Notes under the pieces: generated by a model
The model's database searches: none
What the model was told of the DNA's origin: nothing
What the model saw: only the letters and a program-made list of their open reading frames with translations
Position numbers and translations under genes: made by a program
DNA from: Cytobacillus sp. NCCP-133
GTDB taxonomy: Bacteria > Bacillota > Bacilli > Bacillales > Cytobacillaceae
Direction of reading: 5' to 3'
Length of the DNA: 64,000 bases
Assembly: GCF_026011715.1 (NCBI RefSeq)
Contig: NZ_BRVM01000002.1
Coordinates: forward strand, 62,001 to 126,000
Shown here: piece by piece, positions 58,612 to 63,009 of the stretch
How the letters are laid out: each line of letters begins with the position of its first letter
Numbering within the stretch: position 1 is the stretch's first letter

Positions 58612-58667
58612 TTATGAGTGAAAAAACAGTTAACAATGGAAGGATAAGGAAGAGAGGAAAGAAGCTA

Positions 58668-59219
58668 ATGGAGGAGAAAGATCTTATAATAAGCGCCAAA
58701 CGTGGAGATCAGCTCGCTTTTGCCATGCTTTTTAAAAATAACTATCCCTTTCTTGTTAAGTACTTAATCAAGATTACGATGAATCCTGACATAGCAGAAG
58801 AGCTTGCTCAGGAAACGATGGCCAAATGTGTGGAAAAAATCGACATGTTTAACGGCAAAGCCAAATTTTCATCTTGGCTGATTTCAATTGCGACCAATTT
58901 ATATATTGATCAGCAGCGTAAGTCAATAAGAGAGAAAAAGTGGAAACAGCAGGAGAAAGATTTCAGGAGAATGAAGTGGCAGCTCGAAAGCCGAAAGGAA
59001 GAATGGAATGAAGCCTTATCTGCTCTTGGGAAGCTTAAAGAAGATGTCAGGATCCCTATTATTCTTAAACATTATTATGGCTATTCTTACGAAGAAATAG
59101 GAGACATGATGAATTTATTCGCTGGTACGGTTAAATCAAGAGTTCATAACGGAATAATGGATGTAAGAAAGGAGTTGAGACTTCATGACGAATCGAAAAG
59201 TGCTGCCGCTCGAACATGA
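58668..59219 (+). CDS. sigY: ECF RNA polymerase sigma factor SigY
   Basis: A 183-aa ECF sigma factor (B. subtilis SigY: 178 aa). Region 2 runs from FAMLFKNNYPFLVKYLIKI to the FSSWLISIATNLYIDQQR stretch; region 4 has LKHYYGYSYEEIGDMMNLFAGTVKSRVHNG. ATG 58668 is chosen because the sigma-Y promoter lies at 58587-58611 and the frame's ATG at 58614 would be at the transcript's very end. Genes resembling yxlC and yxlD follow with overlaps, as in the B. subtilis sigY operon, and should control its activity. Confidence 0.9.
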   Translation: MEEKDLIISAKRGDQLAFAMLFKNNYPFLVKYLIKITMNPDIAEELAQETMAKCVEKIDMFNGKAKFSSWLISIATNLYIDQQRKSIREKKWKQQEKDFRRMKWQLESRKEEWNEALSALGKLKEDVRIPIILKHYYGYSYEEIGDMMNLFAGTVKSRVHNGIMDVRKELRLHDESKSAAART

Positions 59220-62493: not shown

Positions 62494-62712
62494 TTAGAAA
62501 GAACCGCCGCCAAGCTGTTGTTCTGCCATTTGTACAAGGCGTTTTGTGATTTCTCCACCAACAGATCCGTTAGCACGTGAAGTTGTTTCTGCACCAAGGT
62601 TTACGCCAAATTCAGTAGCGATTTCGAACTTCATTTGGTCAAGTGCTTGTGCTACTCCTGGTACTAGTAATTGGTTTGAGGAATTGCTTCTGCTAGATGT
62701 TTGGTTGTTCAT
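62494..62712 (-). CDS. Alpha/beta-type small acid-soluble spore protein
   Basis: A 72-aa SASP that coats and protects spore DNA and is an amino-acid store at germination. Family signatures: [23 protein letters not shown], containing the GPR protease site (KFEIATEF), and the terminal [17 protein letters not shown]. The Asn/Ser-rich N-terminus is normal. ATG 62712 follows GAGGAGG. A sigma-G-type promoter lies ~150 bp upstream, and between it and the gene is a tRNA-Gln-like sequence, giving an unusually long structured leader for a SASP mRNA. Confidence 0.95.
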
Positions 62713-62746
62713 GTGATTTTCCTCCTCATAAAATTTTGTTGGTTTT

Positions 62747-62813
62747 TGGTTGGGTTAGCTGGAATTGCACCAGCGCAAGGATCAAATCCTGTTCCACTGC
62801 CTGGCTTAACCCA
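62747..62813 (-). tRNA. Degenerate tRNA-Gln(TTG)-like sequence in the SASP leader (pseudo-tRNA)
   Basis: On the minus strand 67 nt fold tRNA-like. The 7-bp acceptor stem TGGGTTA / TAACCCA is perfect and is followed by A and an encoded CCA. The T stem GCTGG / CCAGC is perfect, but its loop is TGCAATT instead of TTCAANN. The anticodon arm has loop ATTTGAT (anticodon TTG, Gln) on a weakened stem. The D arm is shortened (GCCA...TGG, 5-nt loop) and the variable loop is one base. It is 9 nt shorter than a normal tRNA. From memory it resembles Bacillus tRNA-Gln. It ends 34 nt before the SASP start and lies inside the predicted transcript; it is unlikely to translate but may act as an RNA structure. 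Confidence 0.6.
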
Positions 62814-62857
62814 TCGGTATTGGTGTGCGGTGGCTTGCTGCCGCTGTGTTTACTCTC

Positions 62858-62886
62858 TATTATGTTTGATTTATAAAAGTTTATTC
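62858..62886 (-). promoter_or_regulatory. Sigma-G-type promoter of the SASP gene
   Basis: On the minus strand GAATA (62886-62882), a 17-bp spacer and CATAATA (62864-62858) fit the forespore sigma-G consensus. The transcript would start near 62851, so the 5' leader is about 140 nt and includes the tRNA-like element. Confidence 0.65.
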
Positions 62887-63009
62887 TTTAATTAAATCGG
62901 GAATTTTTTCCTGGAGTGTTACCTGTTTAGGTGTGTTATATAACAAAGCAGAAACAAACAAACTATATAAGAAATATACTCTGTAAAACGAAAGCGAGAG
63001 GTTCTGAAA

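Follow-up and report, generated by a model that had tools for sequence, protein, structure and literature searches.

A tRNA-shaped leader of an alpha/beta-type SASP gene: probably a functional RNA element instead of a defunct tRNA gene

Why should a sequence shaped like a tRNA lie between the promoter of an SASP gene and its ribosome binding site, and is it the remnant of a tRNA gene or a working part of the message? The question arises in a stretch of 64,000 nucleotides from Cytobacillus sp. NCCP-133, referred to here as the window, where the minus strand carries, in this order, a sigma-G-like promoter, a leader, a 67-nt tRNA-like element, a Shine-Dalgarno sequence and a 72-aa alpha/beta-type SASP gene. 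The promoter consists of a -35-like box, GAATA (62882..62886), and a -10-like box, CATAATA (62858..62864), separated by a 17-nt spacer, and from their position transcription would be expected to start near 62851. The 5' leader contains a small hairpin, GCGG...CCGC (62827..62844), whose stem is also called on the plus strand, upstream of the tRNA-like element, and positions -3 to -1 of the element are CGA (62814..62816). The element itself (62747..62813) begins with the acceptor 5' strand TGGGTTA (62807..62813), followed by a D-arm-like stem, CCA/TGG, with the loop GGCAG (62794..62804) and by a third arm in the anticodon position with the loop TTG (62775..62792), both of these delimited by comparison with the folds of relatives. 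The T arm GCTGG-TGCAATT-CCAGC (62758..62774), the acceptor 3' strand TAACCCA (62751..62757) and an encoded R73-CCA, in this copy ACCA (62747..62750), complete it. The 7-bp acceptor stem, the 5-bp T stem and the CCA are all perfect. Downstream are the Shine-Dalgarno sequence GAGGAGG (62721..62727) and the SASP gene (62494..62712, with its ATG at 62712). The arrangement given in the original prediction, from GAATA-N17-CATAATA through a 67-nt tRNA-like sequence with 7-bp acceptor stem, T stem and CCA to the ribosome binding site, can all be seen in the sequence, and the identity proposed for the gene agrees with its match to PF00269. The sigma-G-like promoter is borne out by the leaders of relatives, 139 of 161 of which match the two-box pattern (mean of 8 in shuffles), and the box CATA[ACT]TA occurs in 125 of the 161 (mean of 18 when shuffled). 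Elsewhere in the window, a plus-strand ORF (58614-59219) matches the sigma factor SigY (NF007216, above cut-off).

The element is not recognized as a tRNA gene. ARAGORN reported no tRNA gene in the window, no Rfam 15 family matched the window at gathering, and the interval 62650-62950 gave no tRNA-family match in Rfam even at E<=10. Seven related loci (L270, L253, L078, L232, L022, L197 and L038) were compared with Rfam at E<=1 and gave five matches, all below gathering, with none in the B. subtilis-like locus L270. Membership of a known RNA family was rejected, as neither the window nor the seven related loci had an Rfam 15 match at gathering. Weak sub-gathering matches to Plastid-ycf2 (RF04354) were seen on the strand opposite the element, at 62749-62813 (plus strand) in the window and at 630-693 in L197. 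Of the properties expected in a functional tRNA gene, the element has the 7-bp acceptor stem, the T arm and the CCA end, but neither recognition by tRNA finder or covariance model nor a conserved anticodon in a 7-nt loop, a loop length found in 4 of 138 two-hairpin elements.

The original prediction had likened the element to tRNA-Gln, and this is half right. Among 30 tRNA genes of the same genome, taken from five loci, tRNA-Gln is the nearest: it scores 30, the next type 13.5, and none of 200 shuffles more than 11. The tRNA-Gln(UUG) of this genome shares with the element the acceptor (TGGGYTA/TARCCCA), the D-arm AGCC, the T arm and the encoded CCA; the element differs in lacking both a 7-nt anticodon loop and a conserved anticodon, in its short D loop and in a T loop that has TGC in place of TTC, in being embedded in an mRNA leader, and in escaping detection by ARAGORN and the Rfam tRNA model. 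The supposed anticodon does not survive comparison. In the window copy TTG (62785-62783) forms a 3-nt loop, and in eight close relatives the same loop reads TTA, TTT, AAA, ATA, ATT, CAT or GAA. The sequence of the third arm varies freely, with 75 different 5' strands and 104 different loops among the 138 two-hairpin elements, eight of which have TTG in the loop, and the arm is absent altogether from some copies (L222 and L224). Because this loop varies so freely in relatives, the TTG of the window copy is due to chance, and a reading of it as the tRNA-Gln anticodon is rejected. The sequence likeness makes it plausible that the element descends from a tRNA-Gln gene, the element being nonetheless maintained. 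The same genome also holds a solitary further tRNA-Gln(TTG) gene (L155 1501-1575; C1:299061-299135), whose 3' end is GTTA instead of GCCA.

Similar elements were found in many leaders among 80 SASP loci. A covariance model, R1, was made from 15 sequences using the acceptor and T stems only; the sequences used toward it were picked for stem pairing, so that the starting alignment leans to structure. In the window's own genome R1 scores the leader at 75.4 bits, and tRNA-Gln genes account for the next four matches, at 32.2 to 27.7 bits. Since the window copy is itself one of the 15 source sequences, the 75.4 bits are the weaker evidence; the stronger is that R1 matches lie before SASP genes in other genomes, with covariation. 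The loci of the other five PF00269 genes of the same genome contain no R1 match. An order-wide search, which is free of bias toward SASP neighbours, gave some match at E<=0.01 in 340 of 397 genomes, the weaker ones being listed at 75 nt, like tRNA-Gln. Matches of at least 37.6 bits were present, one each, in at least 129 of the 397 genomes, a hand count that is a lower bound (stricter filters above 40 genomes), the next matches scoring at most 37.4 bits and being 75 nt long; at this threshold 268 of the sampled genomes have no match. An alpha/beta SASP gene, recognized by a motif in the ORF that follows, lies directly downstream in all of the 121 matches that were inspected (121 of the 129, the window's own included). 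In the other orders of a 398-genome class sample, which also holds genomes of the window's order and in which divergent elements could be missed, the best match reached 36.1 bits and was 75 nt long like tRNA-Gln, and none was counted as a tRNA-like element.

For comparison we assembled 153 of 177 R1 matches (16 of 31, 57 of 65 and 80 of 81 from three locus sets), among which 16 come from loci fetched by SASP and 29 from a leader DNA query and thus have an SASP neighbour by construction. Omitted were the window and L001 (the same place as L115), L116 and L117 (both seen with SASP), second tandem copies and, as weak, L066, L083, L071, L040, L017 and L021. Family labels could be given to 128 elements (108 and 20 rows from two sets, nine of the 20 from a single-genus search), which fall in 22 families, and three of these rows, without CCA, were dropped before loops and flanks were counted, leaving 125. 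When 44 genomes of one genus were searched, several matches had an SspB-like protein downstream. One of these genomes has a match of 38.5 bits at 1,050,261-1,050,332, before an SspB-like protein; we take the genome to be that of B. subtilis 168 and the protein to be SspB. The tRNA-shaped leader therefore appears to sit in B. subtilis, the best-studied spore former, in which the sspB promoter is a standard sporulation reporter.

The two stems are preserved by matched mutations. Across 92 loci, a hand-thinned subset of the fetched loci aligned to R1 with its source sequences included, pairing in the acceptor and T stems stands at 98.0% and double changes occur in nine of the 12 pairs. Double-change cells number 81 against 13.3 in shuffles, which ignore relatedness, and the signal is destroyed by sliding the partners. 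Acceptors in relatives include TGGACCA/TGGTCCA, TGGGCCA/TGGCCCA and AGGGTTA/TAACCCT, with U1-A72 in 85 of 91 distinct rows. The original prediction had made conservation and covariation in relatives the test of its claim, and both are present, in the 22 families and the 81 double-change cells. Its description of the element as decayed, with damaged loops, is not upheld: relatives from the 22 families typically share the short D loop, the altered T loop and the changed anticodon arm, and they show compensatory changes, and for this reason we regard the element as maintained. A tRNA pseudogene, for which no structural constraint across relatives would be expected, is rejected on the same figures.

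Folding predictions agree less uniformly. When the region from acceptor to T arm was folded in 60 divergent representatives, 48 formed two hairpins, ten formed one and two formed none, the last two being rows with a wrong 5' end; the mean folding z is -1.85 relative to dinucleotide shuffles. Folded alone, the window copy has an alternative pairing at -22.7 kcal/mol against -20.6 kcal/mol for the cloverleaf, and within its leader the mean pairing probability is 0.91 for the acceptor and only 0.39 for the T stem. Of 147 distinct leaders, 101 have both stems above 0.5, a group to which the window's own leader does not belong. In one alignment 42 elements were located by a pattern requiring CCA, which missed L255, L266 and L269 and misplaced the 5' ends of L267 and L271; two bad rows thus stand in the hairpin and promoter counts and were dropped from one of the loop counts below (n=137 and 16), while the CCA and flank counts (n=151 and n=147) use model-located elements only. 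Some variants depart further from the common form. In SASP leaders, L021 (1409-1467) and L040 (1415-1478) have elements with a different acceptor, GGACTAT/ATAGTCC; L083 (1414-1463) has a very short element of 50 nt, with acceptor and T arm and scant space for an anticodon arm; and the first element of L066 (1291-1372, 82 nt) has a hairpin-forming insertion in the T-arm region. That the tRNA-like element is a conserved RNA element we consider almost certain. Because matched mutations have preserved it upstream of one type of gene across numerous Bacillus relatives, the tRNA-shaped leader is probably a working RNA part.

The loops also change together. In standard tRNAs the GG of the D loop is joined to the TTC of the T loop. 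Among the 125 labelled elements, those with a TGC T loop (n=105) have AG in the D loop in 83 cases, GG in nine and neither in 13, whereas those with TTC (n=15) have GG in 11, neither in four and AG in none; five elements have other T loops. Another set, counted by another loop rule, gave TGC with AG in 101 of 137, TTC with GG in nine of 16 and TTC with AG in none of the 16. TTC-GG occurs in five families and TGC-AG in 17, and Fisher's test, counting each family and state once and thus not tree-based, gives p 0.007. This co-change suggests that an A18-G55 contact has replaced G18-U55 and that selection acts on the tRNA elbow. Tandem elements are found in some leaders (L022 1397-1459, L023 1397-1459, L027 1407-1460, L035 1413-1475, L050 1415-1464 and others), and the second copy has no CCA, a TTC T loop and a GG D loop. 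In eight CCA-less elements, mostly second tandem copies, GG accompanies TTC in all eight by eye. The T-loop TGCA of most elements is self-complementary, and loop-loop dimers are conceivable.

What is kept at the ends of the element may indicate what it is for. Of 151 distinct model-located elements, 147 have R73-CCA (116 as ACCA and 31 as GCCA, with other letters in the remaining four), though the mRNA runs on past it. On the 5' side, among 147 model-located elements, C(-3) is found in 132, G(-3) in none and R(-2) in 144. Position -1 is A in 65, T in 49, C in 26 and G in seven, and A(-4), a preference of RNase P, is not favoured here, with 30 of 147. The combination G(-2)T(-1), able to pair with C74-A73, occurs in two of the 125 labelled elements against 20.4 expected. 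According to the available parts of PMC4919913 and PMC10731613, bacterial RNase P reads a 12-bp stack, the elbow, RCCA and an unpaired flank, and pairing of the leader with RCCA is an antideterminant (PMC10731613). The element has the 12-bp acceptor/T stack with its T loop, the 3' RCCA and a 5' flank unpaired with RCCA, and its freest part, the third arm, is not named in those parts of the two papers as read by the enzyme. Since the parts kept are the parts that RNase P reads, we propose that RNase P may cut before U1, which would yield an mRNA starting with a tRNA fold. The element would then mimic that part of a tRNA which RNase P reads, giving the SASP mRNA a processed and structured 5' end. 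We put the chance of an RNase P route for the SASP leader at about even. Somewhat more tentatively, we suggest that such messages may form a class with a "tRNA for a cap", in which the RNase P-cut SASP mRNA would begin with a tRNA fold, its elbow built on A18-G55, that could protect or time the message in the forespore and the dormant spore.

The genome encodes RNase Z as well as an RNase P RNA of type B. The original prediction had named both enzymes as possible makers of the mRNA ends; RNase P stays as a possible partner, but RNase Z cutting is unlikely because CCA, an antideterminant of that enzyme (PMC4919913, in the part available), is encoded in nearly all distinct copies. The RNase P route does not account for everything. 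The U(-1) that RNase P prefers (PMC10731613) is not favoured here, and neither is C(-3)R(-2) explained by the preferences described in the accessible portions of PMC10731613 and PMC4919913. The weakly folding copies, the exceptions to the D/T-loop rule, the five PF00269 loci without a match and the 268 genomes without one also count against it. The 5' ends of ssp mRNAs were reportedly mapped decades ago, defining the sigma-G promoters; if such an end lay close to the promoter, it would suggest that processing is partial or does not occur. As for the fate of the message, sspB was absent from the abundant spore mRNAs in one study, unlike in an earlier one, and the matter is disputed (PMC7407066, as far as its available text goes).

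The fold might instead remain uncut and control translation or decay through the ribosome or a tRNA-binding protein, for example EF-Tu, the CCA enzyme or a forespore factor, with RNase P uninvolved. RNase P is only one of several factors that read the elbow, acceptor and CCA (PMC4919913, in part), the CCA end lies 10-23 nt before the Shine-Dalgarno sequence in 150 of 161 leaders, and the conserved C(-3)R(-2) could belong to a protein site. A CCA internal to the mRNA is, however, unusable by enzymes that need a free 3' end. Sequestration of the Shine-Dalgarno sequence by the element is not predicted, the pairing probability between them exceeding 0.5 in none of 136 leaders (median 0.004); the sequence is predicted to pair elsewhere, with a median of 0.70 for bases outside the element, and control by these other pairings may occur. 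A terminator-switching riboswitch was rejected, as the window has no minus-strand terminator-like site between the element and the ORF. We regard the uncut fold as unlikely, though the likeliest of the rival readings.

In another reading, RNase P and a second cut would release a stable tRNA-like small RNA acting in trans, and the SASP mRNA would start after the CCA. The complete tRNA ends, CCA included, and the A-rich spacer that follows the CCA would suit such a product, but the encoded CCA hinders RNase Z (PMC4919913, same part), the anticodon arm is unconserved and all 121 inspected matches of the order are tied to an SASP gene, which leaves it a slim chance. Slimmer still is the chance that the enzymes charging glutamate or glutamine bind the leader through its tRNA-Gln identity and sense the supply of amino acids, as the thrS operator does. 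The acceptor indeed resembles that of tRNA-Gln, down to the prevalent U1-A72, but the conserved anticodon-loop identity that marks a synthetase-binding operator is lacking, as the rarity of TTG and the copies without the arm make plain. A functionless, decayed tRNA-Gln gene, to which only the closeness in sequence to tRNA-Gln would point, is scarcely credible in the face of 22 families and double compensatory changes.

Several known tRNA mimics were compared with the SASP leader, and each differs from it. The E. coli thrS operator, a mimic of tRNA-Thr, likewise lies in a bacterial mRNA leader, but there the anticodon arm is mimicked for the synthetase, whereas this arm is the freest part of the SASP element. 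The tRNA-like structures of plant viruses are also tRNA mimics in cis within mRNA-like RNAs; they are viral and 3'-terminal and are aminoacylated at a free CCA end. The tag frame of tmRNA lies inside an RNA that stands by itself; the SASP element lies in cis, 5' of an ordinary ORF and with its CCA internal. The mascRNA and menRNA of MALAT1 and MEN-beta sit at the 3' end of their parent RNAs, which are human and noncoding, unlike the bacterial 5' leader of a protein-coding mRNA described here. The tRNA-like domain of tmRNA shares with the SASP element the acceptor/T half of a tRNA and RCCA, and it is an RNase P substrate (PMC10731613), as the SASP leader would be on the proposed route. In the case of mascRNA and menRNA, which also mimic tRNAs, RNase P matures the parent RNAs (PMC11693755).

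In the literature searched, outside which lie most subscription journals, we found no description of a tRNA-like SASP leader. We know of no other bacterial protein-coding mRNA whose leader holds a full tRNA-like fold conserved over many families and tied to one kind of gene. On the reading of a tRNA for a cap, the SASP leaders would make up a conserved RNA family that is new, with B. subtilis sspB among its members. The tRNA-shaped leader makes testable where the 5' ends and the stability of spore messages come from, and whether mRNAs are matured by RNase P in the forespore. The elements also constitute a natural series of minimal tRNAs, with a free or missing anticodon arm and a rebuilt elbow, from which it may be learnt which parts of a tRNA are needed by partners that do not decode.
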